Shown one piece after another: positions 7,680-28,533 of a stretch of 28,583 nt of DNA. Position numbers and translations under genes: made by a program. Location: the IMG/VR virus record IMGVR_UViG_3300009160_000138, positions 1-28,583 of that record; one strand, given 5' to 3'. How positions within the stretch are numbered: the first letter of the stretch is position 1; each line of letters opens with the position of its first letter. The DNA comes from a virus. The notes under the pieces were generated by a model that ran no database searches, was not told the origin of the DNA, and worked only from the letters and a program-made list of their open reading frames with translations.

Positions 7680-8420
7680 CTACTCGGGTGAATGTGCAAC
7701 TTTTTTCTTTCTTGCCGCTAACATTTTTGCTTTCCATTCTGGGTCAGCCCATAACGCTTTAGCTGCAGCAGCTTTTGCTGCTTTAACTTCTGCGCGGTTG
7801 GCAATTTCTTGATTATTTGCAGTTTGTTTTGCAGCGTATGCAGGATCACTCCATTGGGCCTTTGCTTGCGCACTTGTCTTGGCCTTTGATACATCTGTGC
7901 TCCGCGCCTTCTTAATGCCTTGCTGACGCTTCTGGCGTGTTTCCGGTTTGGCCCATGCGTCCGTACTTGCAATAGATTTGTGCGCCCTAGCTTCGGGTGT
8001 GCCCTGTACTTTGCGTTGCCCGGAAGCCACTTTTTCTTGGTACACCGGGTCTTTCCAGTTTTTAATAGAGTTGTACTTATCTACCGCTTTATGTGCGTTG
8101 GTTTTAATTGTGCCACTGCCTCCTTCGCCGCCATCGGTCAGATTAAATAACGTTCCTGTTCCGGTATTGCGCCTGCCATACAACGCAATAAGTTCTATTT
8201 CTTTGGCAAAAGCTTCGGCTTCAACTTCTGTTTCAAAAACGCGTTCGCACAGCGCTACCAGTCCGCGCTGCTTAAGGTGGGAAATAAAATCTTGAAATGG
8301 CTTATTGTGTGATCCCTTTGACCAGTGGGACATATCGCGGTCTCCAGTCCCCTTGCCAACATACACAGGTTGATCTTTTTTGAGAGGGCGGGGGTCGCGG
8401 TAAACATAAACGTAAAACAT
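7680..8420 (-). CDS. GIY-YIG endonuclease with WxDP repeats (homing-type), 246 aa
   Basis: The start at 8420 has AGGAG five bases upstream; a longer frame from 8456 would add 12 residues but has no ribosome site. The N-terminus MFYVYVYRDPRPLKK, then PVYVGKGTGDRDMSHW, supplies the GIY-YIG core (YVYVY and YVGKG, with Arg near residue 28) and a helix FAKEIELIALYGRR carries the expected glutamate. After about residue 110 the protein is lysine/alanine-rich with repeats of the W-x-DP-x-Y/W-x-x-K type (NWKDPVYQEK, QWSDPAYAAK, LWADPEWKAK), the DNA-binding modules (NUMOD-like) typical of homing endonucleases. It sits between two structural genes, each with its own boundary signals, like a free-standing homing gene. 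Confidence 0.82.
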   Translation of the reverse strand: MFYVYVYRDPRPLKKDQPVYVGKGTGDRDMSHWSKGSHNKPFQDFISHLKQRGLVALCERVFETEVEAEAFAKEIELIALYGRRNTGTGTLFNLTDGGEGGSGTIKTNAHKAVDKYNSIKNWKDPVYQEKVASGQRKVQGTPEARAHKSIASTDAWAKPETRQKRQQGIKKARSTDVSKAKTSAQAKAQWSDPAYAAKQTANNQEIANRAEVKAAKAAAAKALWADPEWKAKMLAARKKKVAHSPE

Positions 8421-8464
8421 GGTGGCTCCTAAAGTTGAAGCCCTAATGTACATCAATGGTCGAT

Positions 8465-18820: not shown

Positions 18821-18854
18821 GCCCGCTACGCTTCGGCGTAGCGGGCTTTTTTTT
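18821..18854 (+). terminator. Strong rho-independent terminator ending first early unit
   Basis: GCCCGCTACGC (18821-18831), loop TTCG, then GCGTAGCGGGC (18836-18846): an 11-bp perfect stem, followed by eight T. It follows the 76-residue gene and closes the unit begun at 17826. This is the most stable hairpin of the window and marks the edge of the gene-free region. Confidence 0.95.
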
Positions 18855-20374: not shown

Positions 20375-20403
20375 TTGACAAAGTCTAATATGTATGCTAT
20401 AAT
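20375..20403 (+). promoter_or_regulatory. Perfect-consensus sigma-70 promoter with overlapping operator
   Basis: TTGACA at 20375-20380, 17-bp spacer, TATAAT at 20398-20403: a full consensus. Directly overlapping the last three bases of the -10, the sequence AATGTAC-TTT-GTACATT (20401-20417) is a perfect 7-bp inverted repeat, centred near the expected start site (about 20410). It is well placed to block open-complex formation when bound by a dimeric repressor. Confidence 0.88.
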
Positions 20404-21119: not shown

Positions 21120-21325
21120 TGAAGAGCGCAAGAAAAATGAACCTGCGCGAGTACATAGCTTGCGATTGGGTGGAATCCAAGCCTACCGTCAAGCGGGCAG
21201 TGCTGGAGATGGGTTGCATCTTTGCCGCCGCCGAAGCCAAGAACAACGGCATACCCTACACGCCGCTGTACTGGAACAAAGTGGGCGAAGGTAAATGGCT
21301 TTATTCACTTTGGGAAATCGAATGA
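21119..21325 (+). CDS. Unknown small protein, 68 aa
   Basis: Starts at 21119 with TTGGAG six bases upstream; an earlier in-frame ATG at 21107 lies within that leader. The protein (MKSARKMNLREYIACDWVES, then MGCIFAAAEAKNNGIPYTPL and WLYSLWEIE at the end) is short, helical, and rich in Trp/Tyr at its C-terminus. No motif is known. It overlaps the neighbouring gene by four bases, in a tightly packed run of small genes. Confidence 0.7.
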   Translation: MKSARKMNLREYIACDWVESKPTVKRAVLEMGCIFAAAEAKNNGIPYTPLYWNKVGEGKWLYSLWEIE

Positions 21326-21606
21326 GATACATAGCTAAAGAATACGTTGACGTTGGCCCGCCGGTCAACAAAAGCAACGACAAGAATTGGCGTCACTGCA
21401 CACAATGCGGTGACGACATGCACTCAGAGCGGTGGGCATTGGGCTACCGACTCTGTTTGTTTTGCGGCGAAGAAGCCGCTCAGACCGAACGCGCATCTTG
21501 GTGCGTTGTTCAGCCGTATGGCAAAGGGCCCTACATGTTGGTGACCAAGGCGTCTGCACACCAGACCGTCAAAGACACTAACCAGAAGGCAACCCGATCG
21601 GACTGA
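21322..21606 (+). CDS. Zinc-ribbon-type phage protein, 94 aa
   Basis: The start overlaps the previous stop by ATGA (21322-21325). The protein has CTQCGDDMHSERWALG, then CLFCGEEAAQTERASW and CVVQPYGKG: two CxxC pairs 16 residues apart make a zinc ribbon, and a third cysteine follows. Proteins with this ending (GKGxYxxVTxxxAxxTxKxTNQK) recur in phages. Zinc ribbons of this type often bind nucleic acid or partner proteins; no function is established. The last stop codon lies inside dyad 5. Confidence 0.78.
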   Translation: MRYIAKEYVDVGPPVNKSNDKNWRHCTQCGDDMHSERWALGYRLCLFCGEEAAQTERASWCVVQPYGKGPYMLVTKASAHQTVKDTNQKATRSD

Positions 21607-21673: not shown

Positions 21674-22750
21674 ATGTCAGATATCAAATTCACACGCCGC
21701 GTCAACTTCCGAGAGACCGTTGACCTCCTGCTCAACTCAGGGCACAACTCAGTGCACCTCCAAGGCGAGCCGGGCGTAGGCAAAACAGCCATTCAGGATG
21801 TCTTGGTTGAACGTACCGGATATCACAAGGTCTATATCGACGGGCCCAACACCGATGTGGGTCAGGCGGGCATGCCCATCCCCAACCACACCACGCGGAC
21901 ACTGGACTTTTATCCAGCCGCGAACTTCAAGCTCCACCTCAACGAACCGTGCGTAATCATGATCGACGAGTGGACTAAGACCGACGACTACGTGCGTAAC
22001 ACACTGCACCCACTGTTGCATGAGCGCCGCATGGGTTCATTCAACCTGCACCCCGAGACCATCGTGTTCACAACGGGCAACATGGACGGGGACAATGTCG
22101 GCGACAGTGCGAAGGCGCACACCCGTAACAGGCAGACATGGATGACCTACATGAAGCCCACTGCTGAAGAATGGTTGGTATGGGCGGGCAATGCGGGCGT
22201 AGCTCCTGAGATTATGGCGTGGGTCACTGAGTATCCCCATTGCCTAGCATCGTACATGGACGGCGGGCAGAAAGAGAACCCATACATCTTCAGCCCGTCG
22301 GATGCATCCCAAGTTGCGTTTGTCTCGCCTCGCTCGTTGTTCAAGGCATCGCATTGGGTCAACGTACGTGATCGCATCACAACTAACGCGCTCGTTGCGG
22401 CCCTCGATGGTACGGTTGGTATCTCTGCGTCTCGTGATCTGCAAGCATACATCACGCTTGCCGATCAACTCCCGACCAGAGACTCTATCGAGCGTGACCC
22501 CGAGGGTGCGATCATCCCGACCAGCCCTGCCGCGCAGTGCATCTTGATGTTCAAAGCCGTGACCGCCGCCAAGCGGGAAAACTTTGGCGTGTGGATGCGC
22601 TACATCAAGCGTATGCCGAAAGAAGCACAAGCGTTGTTCATCAACAGCTTGCTCGAAGTCAGGTCTCAAAAGGCGTGGGCACTTGCACACCCATCGTTCG
22701 TATCGTGGGCCCGCGAGAACCAGTACATGTTTGCTGGTCTCAAGGGATAA
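21674..22750 (+). CDS. MoxR-type AAA+ ATPase, 358 aa
   Basis: Start chosen at 21674, with AGGAAA upstream and the natural N-terminus MSDIKFTRRVNFR; an earlier ATG at 21623 lies in the dyad. Walker A is GEPGVGKT at residues 31-38 and Walker B CVIMIDE at 93-99, and VFTTGNMDGD at 131-140 holds the sensor-1 asparagine. The hydrophobic strands and TRNRQTWMTYM region fit the MoxR branch, whose members act as ATP-driven chaperones together with VWA proteins. The paired gene at 23306 encodes such a VWA protein, with only small genes between. Probable role is remodelling of a target complex; the substrate is unknown. Confidence 0.88.
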   Translation: MSDIKFTRRVNFRETVDLLLNSGHNSVHLQGEPGVGKTAIQDVLVERTGYHKVYIDGPNTDVGQAGMPIPNHTTRTLDFYPAANFKLHLNEPCVIMIDEWTKTDDYVRNTLHPLLHERRMGSFNLHPETIVFTTGNMDGDNVGDSAKAHTRNRQTWMTYMKPTAEEWLVWAGNAGVAPEIMAWVTEYPHCLASYMDGGQKENPYIFSPSDASQVAFVSPRSLFKASHWVNVRDRITTNALVAALDGTVGISASRDLQAYITLADQLPTRDSIERDPEGAIIPTSPAAQCILMFKAVTAAKRENFGVWMRYIKRMPKEAQALFINSLLEVRSQKAWALAHPSFVSWARENQYMFAGLKG

Positions 22751-22773
22751 ATCGACAACTTGACGAAAAATCT
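22745..22773. promoter_or_regulatory. Degenerate dyad element 6
   Basis: Left arm GGATAAATCGACA is close to the half-site, but the right arm (TGACGAAAAATCT) matches poorly. It contains the TAA stop of the ATPase gene and lies 11 nt before the next ATG. It is likely a decayed copy or a single half-site. Confidence 0.5.
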
Positions 22774-22784
22774 GGAGAAATGAA

Positions 22785-22976
22785 ATGAAGAAATACCAAG
22801 AACCGCAAGCACAGCATTGGGTTGTGTTGCGTCTAGTAAAGCAGTTGTTTAAAGCCCGTGAGGGGCGCGACAGAAACTCAGAGCTGAGTGTGCTTTGGCT
22901 ACTTCGTGAGGTCGGTAGTAAGCAAGTGCTGAACATGATTGACCAACTGCATGCTGAAGAAAGGGCAAAGAAATGA
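22785..22976 (+). CDS. Unknown small helical protein, 63 aa
   Basis: A 63-residue protein (MKKYQEPQAQHWVVLRLVKQ, then REGRDRNSELSVLWLLREVG, then KQVLNMIDQLHAEERAKK), basic and wholly helical, with TCTGGAGAAATGAA in front of the ATG. It is the first of three small genes between the ATPase and the VWA protein, and its own stop overlaps the next gene by ATGA. No motif recognised; it could be an adaptor for the MoxR/VWA pair. Confidence 0.72.
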   Translation: MKKYQEPQAQHWVVLRLVKQLFKAREGRDRNSELSVLWLLREVGSKQVLNMIDQLHAEERAKK

Positions 22977-23185
22977 CCGAGGAAATAACCATACTAGACT
23001 GCCGCACTTGCGGTATCACCATTACAGAGAGCCGAGAGAAATGGGTGGTAACGTGTTTCTTTGACCATGAACCCTCTGAAGTTTACGGCACGTTTGGGTC
23101 TGAGACAGAGGCTATCGATTGGGCCGAGTCGGGCAGGGTCGCATGGGATGCGTGTCATGTGGCAAGTGTTAGGAGTGCGGAATGA
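22973..23185 (+). CDS. Unknown small protein with CxxC motif, 70 aa
   Basis: A 70-residue acidic protein (MTEEITILDCRTCGITITES, then KWVVTCFFDHEPSEVYGTFG, then EAIDWAESGRVAWDACHVAS). It has a CRTCG motif near residues 10-14 plus two further Cys and a His, which might bind zinc. The start overlaps the previous stop by ATGA. It resembles small phage zinc-binding proteins in composition only. No function can be given. Confidence 0.72.
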   Translation: MTEEITILDCRTCGITITESREKWVVTCFFDHEPSEVYGTFGSETEAIDWAESGRVAWDACHVASVRSAE

Positions 23186-23328
23186 ACGTTGATGCTTTTT
23201 ATCAAGCGGGCATGGCGTTTGCGAATCAGCTTAGGCTGATCGGCGAGCATGAATCCGCCCATGAAATTGAAGTTTATACATTGGAAATCAAACAGGAGTT
23301 AGAAAATGAAATCGAAACTGAAAGCTGA
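23182..23328 (+). CDS. Unknown small acidic protein, 48 aa
   Basis: A 48-residue frame with AGGAG 6 nt upstream of ATG 23182, overlapping the preceding gene's stop by ATGA. The protein (MNVDAFYQAGMAFANQLRLI, then EHESAHEIEVYTLEIKQELE) is one long acidic amphipathic helix. It overlaps the start of the VWA gene at 23306 by 23 nt, in a different frame. The good ribosome site and coupling make it a real gene; it may be a short regulator or cofactor. Confidence 0.62.
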   Translation: MNVDAFYQAGMAFANQLRLIGEHESAHEIEVYTLEIKQELENEIETES

Positions 23329-24571
23329 ACAGCGTATTGAATTGGTACACGTGAGCCTCATGCGCTCACCTGAGTTCGCGTTGTTCGCGGGCTTGTTCAT
23401 GGTAGGCAAGACGAGCGTGGTCGACATGCCGATCACTGCCCGTACCAACGGGCGTGACGCACAGTACGGGCGTGGGTTCGTGGACTCGCTGAGCGACAAG
23501 GAGCTTGCCTTTCTTGTCATGCACGAGAACATGCACAAGGCGTACCGCCACCTGACAACGTGGAAGGCGTTGCATGACATCGACCACCATTGCGCGAACG
23601 CTGCGTGTGACTACGTCATCAACATCCAGTTGGTTGACCTCGACCCGAACGAGAAGCTGATCGCCATACCCCGCGTAGACGGTAAGGTGATGGGCTTGCT
23701 CGACCCTGCGTATCGTGGGATGGACACGAAGCAAGTGTTCGACATCTTGCGTAAGAAGAAGGAAGAGGGCGAAGAGGGCGAAGAGGGCGAAGAAGGTGAG
23801 GATGGCGGCGGGGACAAACGCGGCAAGGGGACAGATCGTCAAGATGGCGATGAGTCCGGGCACGGCGGGTTCGACGAGCACGACTGGGAGGAAGCAGTTG
23901 ACGGCATGACTGAGGAGGAGAAGCAAGAACTCGCTGACGATATTGACCAAGCCCTGCGGCAAGGCGGCATCTATGCGGGCAAGGTTGGTGGGAAGATGAG
24001 CCGCGAGGTTGCTGAGATGCTGACACCGAAGGTGAACTGGCGCGAGGTACTGCGCAGGTTCGTCAAGACCAGCCTGAAAGATCGTGATTCTCCGTCATGG
24101 CGCAAGGCCCACAAGAATTACCTGTGGCAAGACATCATCTTGCCTTCTATTCTTGGCAAGCGTATAAAGCACCTCGCTGTGGGCATCGACACATCGGGTT
24201 CCATACAAGGGCCGATACTGACCGCGTTCCTGTCCGAGTTGAACAAGATCATCAAGGATGTAAACCCTGATTGCGTCGACGTTATGTATTGGGATACTAA
24301 CGTGGCAGGTCATGAGACGTACACGGGTACGAAGGCAGACATCGTGAGCCGCACAAACCCCAGAGGTGGTGGTGGCACTAACCCTGACTGCGTACCTGTG
24401 TTTATGAAGGAGCACAAGATAGCACCTGATGCGCTTGTGATTCTGTCGGACGGGTATATGAGCAGTAATCCGGCGATGTGGTCTGGCCCTAAGTATCCCG
24501 TGCTGTGGTGCATCATCGGTAACGATGGGTGGACGCCGCCTCGTGGTCAACTTGTTAATGTGAAGGAGTGA
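23306..24571 (+). CDS. Metallopeptidase-like / VWA fusion protein (DUF2201-type), 421 aa
   Basis: The start at 23306 has AGGAG 7 nt upstream. The N-terminal 145 residues form a zinc-peptidase-like domain with VMHENMHKAYRH at about 71-82, an HExxH motif, and NAACDYVINIQL at 98-109, both diagnostic of DUF2201-type proteins. Residues 150-200 are an acidic Glu/Gly/Asp-rich linker encoded by a 9-bp tandem repeat. From about 285 a VWA domain follows with the MIDAS DTSGSI at 295-300 and an ILSDGY motif near 398. It pairs with the MoxR-type ATPase at 21674. Whether the peptidase is active is not known; HExxH alone does not prove it. Confidence 0.85.
   Translation: MKSKLKAEQRIELVHVSLMRSPEFALFAGLFMVGKTSVVDMPITARTNGRDAQYGRGFVDSLSDKELAFLVMHENMHKAYRHLTTWKALHDIDHHCANAACDYVINIQLVDLDPNEKLIAIPRVDGKVMGLLDPAYRGMDTKQVFDILRKKKEEGEEGEEGEEGEDGGGDKRGKGTDRQDGDESGHGGFDEHDWEEAVDGMTEEEKQELADDIDQALRQGGIYAGKVGGKMSREVAEMLTPKVNWREVLRRFVKTSLKDRDSPSWRKAHKNYLWQDIILPSILGKRIKHLAVGIDTSGSIQGPILTAFLSELNKIIKDVNPDCVDVMYWDTNVAGHETYTGTKADIVSRTNPRGGGGTNPDCVPVFMKEHKIAPDALVILSDGYMSSNPAMWSGPKYPVLWCIIGNDGWTPPRGQLVNVKE
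23762..23797 (+). repeat. Tandem GGCGAAGAG repeat in acidic linker
   Basis: The unit GGCGAAGAG occurs three to four times near 23767-23795, giving Glu-Gly-Glu repeats in the linker of the VWA protein. It is likely to vary in copy number between relatives by slippage. Confidence 0.7.
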
Positions 24572-24575
24572 GTAT

Positions 24576-24824
24576 ATGAACTACGAAGAAGAAGTTATTT
24601 TGAACGTGGAGAGCGGGCGTTACCTGCTCACGATGGACGAGGCAATGAGCGTGGCTAGGATACTCGGCGCGGCGATGACTATTGGCAATGAGTGGCGCTC
24701 CGGTCAGAGTGACTTTGTGGTCTACAAAAAGGTAAACCCCATGGCGGCGTCGGTCACCCCGTTTCATGCGGCCCTGCGCATTGAGGTGGAGACGAACATG
24801 CGTGAGAAGGAGAAGAAGCCATGA
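24576..24824 (+). CDS. Unknown small protein, 82 aa
   Basis: An 82-residue protein (MNYEEEVILNVESGRYLLTM, then EAMSVARILGAAMTIGNEWR, then IEVETNMREKEKKP) with an acidic strand-rich N-terminus and a helical middle. AAGGAGTGAGTAT precedes its ATG. It ends by overlapping the next gene start (ATGA). No motif recognised. It is close downstream of the VWA gene and may be coupled with it. Confidence 0.72.
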   Translation: MNYEEEVILNVESGRYLLTMDEAMSVARILGAAMTIGNEWRSGQSDFVVYKKVNPMAASVTPFHAALRIEVETNMREKEKKP

Positions 24825-24973
24825 AAGAAAGTCTGTACGCAATCAACCTGAACCGCGAGACGTTCGACCTCTTACAGGACGTTCGCGTGGAGTTGACTGC
24901 GTCGCTTGGGTTCCAGCCCACCAACGGTCAGGTGATTCGTCACTTGATCTCTCTTTACTTCAAGTCGGAATGA
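24821..24973 (+). CDS. Small ribbon-helix-helix-like protein, 50 aa
   Basis: A 50-residue frame starting at 24821, overlapping the previous stop by ATGA. The order is a short strand (SLYAINLNRE), a helix (TFDLLQDVRVELTASL), then GFQPTNGQVIRHLISLYFKS, which has the spacing of a ribbon-helix-helix (CopG-like) DNA-binding dimer: strand, helix A, turn G-x-x-P-T-N, helix B. Such proteins bind palindromic operators. Its stop codon falls inside dyad 7 (24971-24973), a suggestive arrangement for self-regulation. The fold is predicted by eye, so treat it as likely, not proven. Confidence 0.62.
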   Translation: MKESLYAINLNRETFDLLQDVRVELTASLGFQPTNGQVIRHLISLYFKSE

Positions 24974-24996
24974 TCGACAACTTGTCGATTAGTCCA
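24966..24996. promoter_or_regulatory. Dyad element 7
   Basis: Left arm CGGAATGATCGACA, spacer ACT, right arm reverse complement of TGGACTAATCGACA: 11 of 14 positions agree. It covers the stop of the ribbon-helix-helix-like gene and ends at the start of the AAGGAG site of the next gene (ATG 25007). Confidence 0.85.
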
Positions 24997-25006
24997 AGGA
25001 GATTAC

Positions 25007-25177
25007 ATGTTACTAGTCATAGGGCGAGGGCGGGTTATTTATTTAAGAGAACCTGTGCCGAGGATTGGGAGTAGATCAGGAGAGAACCTGACGTTACAGC
25101 AGTACAAGAGACTGCACAACTTGGATATGCTTTCTGAAAGCATGTCTCTTATTCAACGAGCTTTATTGGAGAAATGA
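25007..25177 (+). CDS. Unknown small basic protein, 56 aa
   Basis: A 56-residue frame with AAGGAG five bases before its ATG. The protein (MLLVIGRGRVIYLREPVPRI, then SGENLTLQQYKRLHNLDMLS) is basic and ends in a helix. It stops one base before the next ATG, and the conserved leader CTTTATTGGAG of that next gene is contained in its coding end. No domain is recognised. The tight packing and good ribosome site support a real gene. Confidence 0.65.
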   Translation: MLLVIGRGRVIYLREPVPRIGSRSGENLTLQQYKRLHNLDMLSESMSLIQRALLEK

Positions 25178-25178
25178 A

Positions 25179-26201
25179 ATGGGGTACAACACAGCAAATG
25201 TGCGCAGGCTAGACAGCTTTGCGCAGGCGAAGAAACACTACCAAGCTGTCAAGCCGATACGCGGTCGCACGGAAGATCGTCGACCTTTGGGTGAACGCCG
25301 ACATGACGGTATGGCGAGTATTGAAATGCCAAACGACAGCACTGTCGACTTAGTATTCTGCGGTACTACGTTCGTGCGTTGGCACGCGGACGATACGTTT
25401 GAGGTCATGTGCCCTGTGTATTACAGTGCGTATGCACCCGACAACTGTACTCCGTTTCTGCCCGACCTCTTGCGTATGCGGTGGATAGACTGCCGTATGT
25501 TCTTGGTGCACGAGGGTAAAGAGTACCTGATGGGGCGTGGCGATGTGTTCAGGTTCTCAAGGGTGGGCGGGAAGTATTTCTTTCTTAACAAGCCCGTGGC
25601 GTACAACTACCGCAAGGTCAGGGGTGCGTTGGACAACGTGATGCAGAGGTACGTGCCGTTTCTTGACTGGTTGCAGGTCGTGTGTGCTGTGACTAACGAG
25701 ATCGAGAATGCCGAGCGGGAGTACGTCATCCCGTTATTCGACGCCGAAGCGGGCGTGGCTACAGAAACGCAGATCAAGGCAGAGATGGATAAGCGACAAA
25801 AGGAAGAAAACAGGTGCGGCTACGAACTAGCCGCGGCGTGGCACCAAGCGGGCGATGCGCCATACAGCAGCTATCGCGCAAGAGGGTTCAGCACGGAACA
25901 TTGCGCGGCGCTGGACAGGTGGGTGACAAGCGACAACCCCGAGGACTGGGTTATCGCCATGAAGCTGATCGCTCTGCGGTTTGGGGATCATGAGTATCGC
26001 CTTCGGATGTACCGGCTGTCATTCACTACGGCGTTTGATGTGTTGAAGAACATTGCGACACACCTGCACCGTACGAAGGTGTTTGAACGAGTGCGCTTGC
26101 CCGATGGCAAAGCACCGTCCCGCACAAATGAGAACTTCTTTAAGTCGCGCAAGATACCAACCCCTGCGGAATTATCGACATTCGGTCGATCTGTCCGTTA
26201 A
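25179..26201 (+). CDS. Phage protein of unknown function (RPIRGR/RPLG type), 340 aa
   Basis: A 340-residue protein. Its first 50 residues hold HYQAVKPIRGRTEDRRPLGE, a phrase found in a widespread phage protein family of unknown function, followed by a beta-rich region (STVDLVFCGTTFVRWHADDT, then FEVMCPVYYSAYAPD). The middle and C-terminus are helical and charged, with KQKEENRCGYELAAAWHQAG and DHEYRLRMYRLSFTTAFDVL. TTGGAG lies 9 nt upstream of the ATG. The last ten residues (ELSTFGRSVR) are encoded by dyad 8, so the element forms the C-terminus. A role in DNA metabolism is possible but not shown. Confidence 0.75.
   Translation: MGYNTANVRRLDSFAQAKKHYQAVKPIRGRTEDRRPLGERRHDGMASIEMPNDSTVDLVFCGTTFVRWHADDTFEVMCPVYYSAYAPDNCTPFLPDLLRMRWIDCRMFLVHEGKEYLMGRGDVFRFSRVGGKYFFLNKPVAYNYRKVRGALDNVMQRYVPFLDWLQVVCAVTNEIENAEREYVIPLFDAEAGVATETQIKAEMDKRQKEENRCGYELAAAWHQAGDAPYSSYRARGFSTEHCAALDRWVTSDNPEDWVIAMKLIALRFGDHEYRLRMYRLSFTTAFDVLKNIATHLHRTKVFERVRLPDGKAPSRTNENFFKSRKIPTPAELSTFGRSVR
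26167..26197. promoter_or_regulatory. Dyad element 8, coding for a protein C-terminus
   Basis: Left arm CGGAATTATCGACA, spacer TTC, right arm reverse complement of CGGACAGATCGACC: 10 of 14 positions agree. It lies wholly within the last codons of the 340-residue gene, ends four bases before its final base, and precedes the next gene by 40 nt. Both this copy and element 1 are preceded by CCCCTG. Confidence 0.85.
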
Positions 26202-26236
26202 TCAACTTTAATCAACTTTCAACACTGGAGAATATT

Positions 26237-27142
26237 ATGATGCTAGAGAATACAGTTACGACCACACCCGTGGAGACGTACCAACCCCTCCCCATGTCGC
26301 TATCCTCAATGGCGATGCTGGTCGAACTGCGTATCAGTACGTGGACTGCGCGTAAGCGTGACAACGAGACCACGATGGAGATCAACACTTCCAAGGAAGC
26401 TGACCAAGACTCGGGTTCGGTCTACAAGTACCTGATGGCGGGCAGTGACCACCTGAAGAAGATCGAGAAGTATTCGGCCAAGTGTCGGGCGTGGAACGGT
26501 ACGCAGACCCTGCCATGGATGAAGGGCATAGGCTTGCTACCAATGGAGAACTTCTTTAAATACCGTGAGCAGCTTGCAACGATGGAGGCTAATTTCTTCG
26601 CATTGGTTGATGACTTCATCAGGGAGCACCCGCGCCTCAAGAACGACCAAGCCTACAAGCTAGGCAAGTGGTACCAGGCCGATGAGTTTCCAGACATCGA
26701 GACCCTGCCACGGCGGTTCAAGTTCGAGTACAACTTCCTGCCTGTGCCAGAGAGCGGTGACTTCCGTGTCAACTGCGAAGCCCGTATCAAGGCTGACTTG
26801 CAAGAGCAGTACGAGAAGATGTTTGACAACAAGTTGGCAGAGGCGATGCGTGACCCGTGGGACAGGTTGCACAAGGTGCTGACGCACATGACTGACAAAC
26901 TAACTGACGACGAGGACGGAGATCGTAAGATTTTCCGTGACTCAATCATCGACAACGCCGTAGAACTGTGTGACTTGCTGACCCGCTTGAACGTGGTGAA
27001 AGACCCAGAGCTAGAGAAAGCAAGACGCATGCTTGAGCGGGCAGTAACGAACACAGATATCAAAGACTTGCGGGCGCTCGGTAGTGCGCGGCTTGAGTTG
27101 AAGACCGATGTGCAAGATATCCTTAACAAATTTCAATGGTGA
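26237..27142 (+). CDS. DUF3150-like phage protein, partner of MoxR/VWA type, 301 aa
   Basis: A 301-residue protein. Residues 20-45 (SLSSMAMLVELRISTWTARK) and the following EINTSKEADQDSGSVYKYLM, then DHLKKIEKYSAKCRAWNGTQ and TLPWMKGIGLLPMENFFKY, match a widespread phage family, which I believe is catalogued as DUF3150 and often lies near MoxR/CobS-type ATPases and VWA proteins. The C-terminal 130 residues are a charged helical bundle (EARIKADLQEQYEKMFDNKL, RKIFRDSIIDNAVELCDLLT). CACTGGAGAA is in front of the start, ATGATG; the second ATG (26240) is equally possible. Function is unknown; context suggests the third part of the ATPase/VWA system. Confidence 0.72.
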   Translation: MMLENTVTTTPVETYQPLPMSLSSMAMLVELRISTWTARKRDNETTMEINTSKEADQDSGSVYKYLMAGSDHLKKIEKYSAKCRAWNGTQTLPWMKGIGLLPMENFFKYREQLATMEANFFALVDDFIREHPRLKNDQAYKLGKWYQADEFPDIETLPRRFKFEYNFLPVPESGDFRVNCEARIKADLQEQYEKMFDNKLAEAMRDPWDRLHKVLTHMTDKLTDDEDGDRKIFRDSIIDNAVELCDLLTRLNVVKDPELEKARRMLERAVTNTDIKDLRALGSARLELKTDVQDILNKFQW

Positions 27143-27147
27143 ACAAC

Positions 27148-28029
27148 ATGGCAGATTTTGTAAACGTAAGACTCCCTGTGGAGTTTGTTCTTGACCCGAA
27201 ACTCAAAGAGTTGGTGGATAAGTTGGCACTGCGTCATCCGACCTTTACGTTCGGTACGAAAGGTATGAACAGCGACACGTGTAAATCTTGGTCTAACACT
27301 GTTCCTCGCGGGCAGCGTACGCCGCCCCGTGATGACGGTGTTAGATATATCCGCAAGGTCAACGTGCACTGCGGCACTGAGTTACTCGGCTCTGTATCCT
27401 TGGAGACACGATACAGCCGTAGCAATGGTCAGGAGATAGTGTATCAAATCGGGTCGTGGCGTATTCAGAATGAGCGCGGCAATCGGAACACGGCAGTTAC
27501 TGCCAAGTTAGATGTCGCTGTACGCACGGCGAAGAACGTATTCGTTCCACAGGATACCAAGGAGTTGATGGCTAAAGCCGAGAGCAAAATAAATAGCGCA
27601 CTGTATCAAGCGTTAGCTGACTTGCGAAGACCCATCTTACATGGTACGTTGGTAAAAAGTACGTTAGAACTTCAGAAGTATTTGTTCTATCACTTAAAGG
27701 GGGTAGAGGTGCCCGTGCACTTAAAGCATAGCGTGGAGAGCTCCTTTACTTCAGCGAAGTACAAAACCGCCATGGCGGAGTATGAGCTTGCAGAGTACAT
27801 GAGTGCCAAACCGTGTATGTTCATTCACGTACACGGCGGTGGTTACCTGATGTGGCATGACAACGAGCACGGGGAACGTGAGGCTGTGTTCCGAACGCTT
27901 GAGGAGTTACCAGAGCAAACACAGAACCACATCTCAGTGCTCCAACTCATGCAAGATAACGAGCTTGTGTATGACGTAGGATACAGACTCGACAGCGATA
28001 ACTTCGCTGTTCTTGGTATAGCTAAGTAA
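27148..28029 (+). CDS. Unknown protein, 293 aa
   Basis: The gene can start at 27136 (MVNNMADF) or 27148 (MADFVNVRLPVEFVLD); the latter has a GGTG ribosome site and a natural opening, so it is preferred. The first 40 residues are strand- and helix-forming (PVEFVLDPKLKELVDKLALR), the middle has SLETRYSRSNGQEIVYQIGS, and the C-terminal part includes FIHVHGGGYLMWHDNEHGER. No known motif. It overlaps or closely follows the DUF3150-like gene and is closed by a strong terminator, so it ends this transcription unit. Function is unknown. Confidence 0.75.
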   Translation: MADFVNVRLPVEFVLDPKLKELVDKLALRHPTFTFGTKGMNSDTCKSWSNTVPRGQRTPPRDDGVRYIRKVNVHCGTELLGSVSLETRYSRSNGQEIVYQIGSWRIQNERGNRNTAVTAKLDVAVRTAKNVFVPQDTKELMAKAESKINSALYQALADLRRPILHGTLVKSTLELQKYLFYHLKGVEVPVHLKHSVESSFTSAKYKTAMAEYELAEYMSAKPCMFIHVHGGGYLMWHDNEHGEREAVFRTLEELPEQTQNHISVLQLMQDNELVYDVGYRLDSDNFAVLGIAK

Positions 28030-28035
28030 CCAACT

Positions 28036-28060
28036 GACCCGCCTAGTGCGGGTCTTTTTT
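28036..28060 (+). terminator. Rho-independent terminator
   Basis: GACCCGC (28036-28042), loop CTAGT, GCGGGTC (28048-28054), then six T. It is a perfect 7-bp stem right after the stop of the 293-residue gene and ends the long middle unit. Dyad 9 follows directly. Confidence 0.92.
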
Positions 28061-28141: not shown

Positions 28142-28170
28142 TTGACACAGTCTAGCTTTGCCACTATATT
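28142..28170 (+). promoter_or_regulatory. Sigma-70 promoter, predicted leaderless transcript
   Basis: TTGACA at 28142-28147, 17-bp spacer, TATATT at 28165-28170. A start seven bases after the -10 would be position 28177, which is the A of the ATG of the VRR-NUC gene. It shares CTTGACANAGTCTA with the promoter at 20375. No ribosome site fits between the -10 and the ATG (only AAGG one base upstream). Confidence 0.78.
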
Positions 28171-28176
28171 TAAGGC

Positions 28177-28533
28177 ATGGCACAAACACCCGAAAAGAAA
28201 GTCAAGGACAAAGTAACAGCGGTACTTAAAGAGTACGGCGCATATTACTTTTTCCCCCCAAGCAACGGCTTCGGTCGTGCTGGCATACCAGATATTGTAG
28301 CTTGCTTGCACGGACGCTTCATAGCGATCGAGTGCAAAGCGGGCGATGGGAAACCCACAGCCCTACAACTGCGGGAACTTCAACGTATATACCTAGCGGG
28401 CGCGACTGCGTTGCTCATCCGCGAGAACAACATACACGAAGTAGAACAACACCTCCAACACATTAAGGAACAACACCATGCTGACCAAGCTTCTGCGCTT
28501 CCCCGTCCCCGATCAAATCAAAGCTTTACTTGA
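28177..28533 (+). CDS. VRR-NUC domain nuclease, 118 aa
   Basis: A compact nuclease. The N-terminal helix (KKVKDKVTAVLKEYGAYYFF) leads to GFGRAGIPDIVACLHGRFIA (residues 31-50) and IECKAGDGKPTALQLRELQR (51-70), giving the PD-(D/E)xK set D39, E52, K54 plus the Gln64 expected of VRR-NUC. The C-terminal 40 residues are charged and likely flexible. Phage VRR-NUC proteins are Holliday-junction or flap-type nucleases that act in replication or recombination. The predicted promoter places the transcript start at the ATG, so translation may be leaderless. It overlaps the next gene by 56 nt. Confidence 0.88.
   Translation: MAQTPEKKVKDKVTAVLKEYGAYYFFPPSNGFGRAGIPDIVACLHGRFIAIECKAGDGKPTALQLRELQRIYLAGATALLIRENNIHEVEQHLQHIKEQHHADQASALPRPRSNQSFT

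Follow-up and report, generated by a model that had tools for sequence, protein, structure and literature searches.

We analysed a 28,583-nucleotide fragment of a freshwater phage (IMG/VR record IMGVR_UViG_3300009160_000138, positions 1 to 28,583; hereafter the window), whose plus strand carries the genes of a MoxR-type AAA+ ATPase, a DUF2201 metallopeptidase-VWA protein and a DUF3150 protein; comparison with related phages supports their being one conserved unit. The MoxR/metallopeptidase-VWA pair is not new, and the third partner, DUF3150, is the new part. We give an even chance to the explanation that the three form an ATP-driven peptidase or remodelling machine for the DNA-replication phase, with DUF3150 as its adaptor. 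The trio is common to phages and resistance plasmids (IncC, for example), which provides a named, testable complex for hundreds of ‘hypothetical’ genes and opens a laboratory route, since both plasmids and phages can be mutated in E. coli. The comparison further suggests that CobT retains a remnant protease domain.

Identity and conserved residues of the three proteins

The first-pass annotation of the window had placed a MoxR gene (21674), a DUF2201 VWA gene with HENMH and DTSGS motifs (23306) and a DUF3150 gene (26237) in one plus-strand run, and both the assignments and the coordinates were confirmed. The MoxR protein (21674-22750, 358 aa) matches AAA_5 over the Pfam cut-off (E 5.8e-7) and the ATPase family phrog_1297 (E 7.9e-41), and its profile also matches midasin (E 2.7e-26) and NorQ (E 8e-6). 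It has the Walker A motif GEPGVGKT and the Walker B motif IMIDE, and the GxGK, DE, N and R residues of the Walker and sensor positions are invariant across the family. Its AAA_5-type P-loop and, in relatives, the VWA-domain gene partner downstream place it in the MoxR class of AAA+ proteins.

The second protein (23306-24571, plus strand, 421 aa) matches DUF2201_N (E 8.8e-30) and DUF2201 (E 6.1e-19), and consists of a predicted N-terminal zincin metallopeptidase, an acidic linker and a C-terminal VWA domain. HENMH occupies residues 73-77 within a longer HExxHxxxxH motif (73-82), and DTSGS (295-299) is part of a complete metal-ion-dependent adhesion site (MIDAS; D295xS297xS299, T358 and D382). 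The earlier proposal leaned on conservation of the HExxH residues, and HExxHxxxxH proved invariant: H73, E74, H77, H82, A100, C101 and D102 are unchanged in 51 VWA sequences that include those of N4 gp25 and MinM2, as are the MIDAS residues D295, S297, S299, T358 and D382. In the predicted structure the VWA part resembles integrin I domains (Z about 13), the matches in the PDB covering the VWA domain, not the metallopeptidase part. DUF2201_N with HExxH and a VWA domain with MIDAS together define the DUF2201 class, for which peptidase activity is predicted; the machine is probably proteolytic. The protein is a member of DUF2201 and not of the CobT family, and retains HExxH. Its phage counterparts are labelled ‘HNH endonuclease’ in phrog_1314, and many phage records copy the label (for example NC_027381.1, Pollock, and gp96 of PP885686.1); the DUF3150-like protein of phage Tunturi_3 also bears it. 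No HNH domain was matched in our analysis, and the label is without support.

The proposed third subunit (26237-27142, plus strand, 301 aa) was assigned to DUF3150 from Pfam, a structure model and profile-profile comparison. Its match to PF11348 is weak (27.5 bits against a curated cut-off of 24.9, E 2.3e-6), and alignment of the window and plasmid DUF3150 profiles with hhalign gave a probability of 94.5% (E 7.7e-8). The model, with a pLDDT (predicted local distance difference test) of 78, has an alpha/beta N-terminal part and a C-terminal helical bundle. Foldseek returned no match to solved structures in the PDB at E<0.001, the rows aligned by VIA-align were generic helical bundles only with Z under 10, and the best match of the sequence profile to solved structures was just E 0.02 (1nt2_B). 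A viral fold library yielded further DUF3150 members and phage proteins without a name, together with a protein of Mycobacterium phage Dylan (E 4e-4). DUF3150-like proteins lie near another kind of AAA+ ATPase (531-567 aa) in two unrelated phages, Tunturi_3 (locus L052, 4150-5742 and 7845-8801) and Dylan (L203, gp94/gp95). No DUF3150 sequence profile matched Dylan gp94, the neighbour of the AAA-ATPase gp95. Our literature search found no mention of DUF3150.

The trio is conserved in related phages

Viral contigs scanned with the VWA protein as seed contained 48 loci. Profiles built from the window proteins found MoxR in all 48 and DUF3150 in 43; in the five others the contig edge precedes the expected DUF3150 position, so that 43/43 informative loci hold the full set. 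Seeding with DUF3150 yielded 80 loci from viral contigs and 7 from genomes, 66 of them all told with MoxR and the VWA protein (66/66 informative), while in the other 21 the DUF3150 or VWA gene sits at a contig end. The two sets overlap in contigs and comprise related phages, and their loci are not independent events. Because co-occurrence is complete in the informative relatives, the unit is more than a chance grouping, which bears out the earlier expectation that these neighbours would be found together in related phages. The three genes are well conserved, with mean identities of 51-54%.

Three gene orders were seen in phages: MoxR-VWA-DUF3150; DUF3150-MoxR-VWA (L039-L044, L046, L055 and L056); and MoxR-DUF3150-VWA (L050, Synechococcus phage MinM2). 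Reshuffling of the genes without loss of linkage is harder to account for by descent. A further gene, for a 340-aa protein, follows the VWA gene in the window and precedes MoxR in another clade.

The six small coupled genes described in the run by the first-pass annotation are real reading frames joined by 4-bp overlaps or short gaps; that description had left out the 340-aa open reading frame (ORF) among them (25179-26201) and a 297-aa ORF after DUF3150 (27136-28029). Three of the small ORFs (63, 70 and 48 aa, overlapping and poorly conserved) lie between MoxR and VWA at 22785-23328, and their counterparts occur in 0, 1 and 15 of 51 related loci. The three after VWA (82, 50 and 56 aa, at 24576-25177) occur in 27, 25 and 13 of the 51, in the nearer clade only. 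The suggestion that the small genes serve as adaptors is thus not supported as a general one, and for those at 22785-23328 scarcity in relatives led us to reject a role as conserved adaptors.

A related trio in plasmids and conjugative elements

PF11348 was found in 8 of 398 genomes of one phylum. Seven of those neighbourhoods were compared: in six DUF3150 is accompanied by a MoxR/CobS-like ATPase as well as a CobT-like VWA protein, in the seventh by the VWA protein only. Among 72,556 plasmid records DUF3150 occurs in 1,168, of which 978 are typed as conjugative, and all three genes are present in 10 of 12 loci of plasmids and integrative and conjugative elements. In three of five plasmids examined closely the ATPase, DUF3150 and VWA genes are consecutive. 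In the IncC plasmid SSB, Bet and a YqaJ exonuclease intervene between the ATPase and DUF3150-VWA, and in the fifth, in a stretch that carries insertion sequences, the ATPase and DUF3150 were found with no VWA gene. A Bet/RecT or lambda/YqaJ-type exonuclease gene adjoins the set in four of the five, and a helicase and a 3'-5' exonuclease in the remaining one. Part of this plasmid set is conserved in pCAR1 (ORF100-103), R478, Rts1, SXT and R391 (PMC2642839).

The phage and plasmid ATPase profiles are homologous, with a probability of 97.4%. The AAA-DUF3150-VWA genes of IncC/MOBH plasmids (pCAR1 and the SXT/Rts1 relatives) thus resemble the phage set: the ATPase and DUF3150 are homologous, the VWA protein carries both HExxH and MIDAS, and the genes are nearly consecutive. 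They differ in that the VWA protein is CobT-like rather than DUF2201 and the genes stand beside SSB/Bet/YqaJ recombination genes. The recurrence of the trio in drug-resistance plasmids points to a shared job for mobile DNA.

In the plasmid-type VWA proteins HExxH falls at the same alignment position in 7/7, and N85, E88, D89 and E93 are likewise unchanged. When chromosomal CobT sequences (L183-L202) were compared with the alignment of these proteins, HExxH was present in 0/20, the aligned place reading, for example, ADSMALRLGCHD. On the simplest reading of the alignment, a metallopeptidase domain whose site has been lost makes up the N-terminal region of CobT; the change may also have run in the reverse direction. 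CobS/CobT cobaltochelatase is like the trio in pairing a MoxR-class AAA+ protein with a VWA protein, and the CobT N-terminal region aligns with the plasmid VWA protein, but CobT is without HExxH. We know of no DUF3150 alongside CobS/CobT. Roseobacter phage CRP-810 (L204) and Escherichia phage Cyrano (L205) have neighbouring genes that resemble CobS and CobT and carry cobalamin annotations, with no DUF3150 detected nearby.

The trio forms a separate unit beside the replication module

Structural genes were identified on the minus strand of the window (terminase, portal, head protein and tail-related genes), and a second gene set on the plus strand starts at about 17.8 kb. The trio is a separate unit within that second set; it adjoins the replication module and lies on the other strand from the structural genes. 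A perfect sigma-70-like promoter by consensus match (TTGACA, 17 nt, TATAAT, with extended -10; 20375-20403, plus strand) likely starts the transcription unit of the trio. An intrinsic terminator with a 7-bp stem and T6 (28036-28054, plus strand) ends it, and with a sigma-70-like promoter for the next unit (28142-28170, plus strand) separates it in the window from the replication unit, whose first gene encodes an Hjc/VRR-NUC-like nuclease (28177-28533, plus strand; Pfam and PHROG matches). A promoter scoring 10/12 or better was present at the next-unit position in 28/72 related loci against 4.5% of shuffles. The promoter at 20375 and the terminator at 28036 lend plausibility to the earlier idea that the whole unit is regulated together; the reliance of that idea on dyads as block dividers (24967-24995, 25124-25146 and 25207-25255) is less secure, as several of these fall within genes and are not strong evidence.

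Sequence of 5.5 kb or more is available for 77 phage loci; downstream of DUF3150, a same-strand PolA gene is present in 74 of them and a PD-(D/E)XK exonuclease gene in 65. Because the unit adjoins the replication module on the strand opposite to the structural genes, and because a homologous trio occurs in plasmids that make no virions, we infer that the trio acts in the DNA phase or in host takeover, and virion assembly is disfavoured as the common function.

Comparison with known MoxR-VWA systems

A comparative study from 2021 reported the MoxR/metallopeptidase-vWA pair from jumbo phages of group 2.2 and proposed a role in virion assembly and processing (PMC7824862). The pair there comprises the same two proteins, a MoxR AAA+ protein and a VWA protein with an N-terminal metallopeptidase domain, and the passage that describes it has no mention of DUF3150, whereas here DUF3150 is present and the neighbours are replication genes. 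Direct tblastn searches found the VWA protein in 704 phage records and the ATPase in 234. The first-pass remark that it is not known why a phage carries such a pair should therefore be qualified, as the pair is common and the jumbo-phage proposal offers it a role.

In E. coli phage N4 and other Schitoviridae gp24 matches the MoxR profile and gp25 is a DUF2201 protein, the two genes being adjacent on the same strand. N4 and its relatives have no recognisable DUF3150, and the literature on gp24/gp25 function yielded nothing past their core/middle-gene status. In bacterial chromosomal pairs the MoxR and DUF2201 genes are immediate neighbours in 9/9 loci, one of which (L175) is the phage-like contig of L056, and no DUF3150 was detected in the flanks fetched. 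NorQ/NorD and RavA/ViaA differ in that their VWA protein lacks a peptidase motif and has a helical N-terminal domain, in place of the DUF2201_N domain with HExxH found in the window.

Proposed mechanism and alternatives

In NorQ/NorD the VWA domain extends a finger into the pore of the hexamer, and ATP consumption reshapes a linker of the partner (PMC13036017). Because of this established MoxR/VWA biology, the MoxR ring would be expected to act on the VWA domain and move the acidic linker that leads to the metallopeptidase domain. By analogy with NorQ/NorD and RavA/ViaA, the MoxR hexamer would grip the VWA protein, and ATP hydrolysis would shift the acidic linker such that the metallopeptidase domain is exposed or activated. 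DUF3150 may be an adaptor that brings substrates or regulates the protease. The position of the genes suggests that the machine would act in the replication phase on targets bound to or interfering with the DNA of the element, either host and defence proteins or its own complexes, and not in virion assembly.

Several observations weigh against this proposal. Most phages with the pair lack a recognisable DUF3150, implying that the pair can dispense with it or has an undetected substitute, and Tunturi_3 has a DUF3150-like protein without a detected MoxR or VWA. The Dylan protein is DUF3150-like by fold and stands beside another AAA+ protein, the target being taken as gp94 from its 275-aa length alone. 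The phage and plasmid VWA profiles do not match significantly overall (17.6%), a short alignment placing HENMH on HEAAH. Core-gene deletions in the SXT bet/exo region changed transfer at most 10-fold (PMC2791158), with s067, s068 and s070 not mapped onto DUF3150 or VWA. Adjacent genes are no proof of a DNA-related role. Finally, a mirror-tree test was not specific: pairwise distance correlations within the trio (0.91-0.94) were no higher than those with the exonuclease (0.91-0.95; with PolA, 0.87-0.89).

These correlations are what would be seen if the genes were vertically inherited neighbours with no joint function, which we hold very improbable given that linkage survives reordering and that unrelated plasmids keep a homologous ATPase and DUF3150 together with a VWA protein. 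The role put forward for the group 2.2 jumbo phages, that of a chaperone for virion assembly coupled to a processing protease, is an unlikely explanation. It was advanced by analogy to the MoxR-vWA of Acidianus two-tailed virus (PMC7824862); our viral fold search also lists a VWFA protein of that virus (E 3.7e-5), and virion proteins of roseophage RPP1 map near N4 gp24/25 homologues (PMC4193335). The structural genes identified here are nevertheless on the opposite strand, relatives keep the trio beside replication genes, and conjugative plasmids, which keep a homologous trio, make no virions. A metal-insertion or chelatase-like chaperone of the NorQ/NorD or CobS/CobT type, maturing a phage metalloenzyme, seems distinctly improbable: MoxR/VWA pairs of the NorQD type do insert metal (PMC13036017) and the plasmid partner is CobT-like, but neither CobN nor an obvious metalloenzyme client was identified adjoining the trio, and the HExxH that never varies here is missing from real CobT.

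We are also doubtful of a counter-defence or inter-element conflict machine, in which DUF3150 would sense or recruit a protein of the host or of a competitor, to be destroyed by the protease. Counter-invader systems follow the same three-part logic, with a MoxR / vWA-peptidase / third-component plan (PMC7159879, PMC12839542), the trio is present in both phages and conjugative elements, and the corresponding SXT region is nearly dispensable for transfer in laboratory strains (PMC2791158). Those systems use other peptidases and third components (VMAP, iSTAND) and belong to cellular defence, not to phage genes. PADLOC has no model that matched the three window proteins, its sole match being a weak one of the IncC ATPase to mad8 (E 2.7e-4), and no fold match from Foldseek or VIA-align ties DUF3150 to iSTAND proteins. 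Anti-defence genes usually diverge fast, whereas these genes are well conserved.

The replication-phase peptidase or remodelling machine can be taken further, to a reading that is rather unlikely in its full extent. DUF3150 would then be the substrate adaptor of an AAA+/metallopeptidase-VWA family that clears or cuts proteins on the DNA of phages and conjugative plasmids during replication and recombination, as a prokaryotic analogue of AAA+-assisted DNA-protein-crosslink proteases, with CobT descending from the family by loss of the protease site.

Other features of the window

DNA similarity of the window to sequenced phages was not detected, and Rfam and tRNA searches of it gave no matches. 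The 340-aa protein (25179-26201, plus strand; 32 loci) has no Pfam or PHROG match, and the 297-aa protein directly after DUF3150 (27136-28029, plus strand; 34 loci) matches no Pfam or PHROG family over the cut-off; both travel with the trio. A small zinc-ribbon-like protein (21295-21606) is encoded directly upstream of MoxR and is kept in 31 loci. Ahead of the MoxR gene run lies a strong plus-strand terminator with an 11-bp stem and T8 (18821-18846), and a homing-endonuclease-like ORF (7680-8456) is located amid the structural genes.

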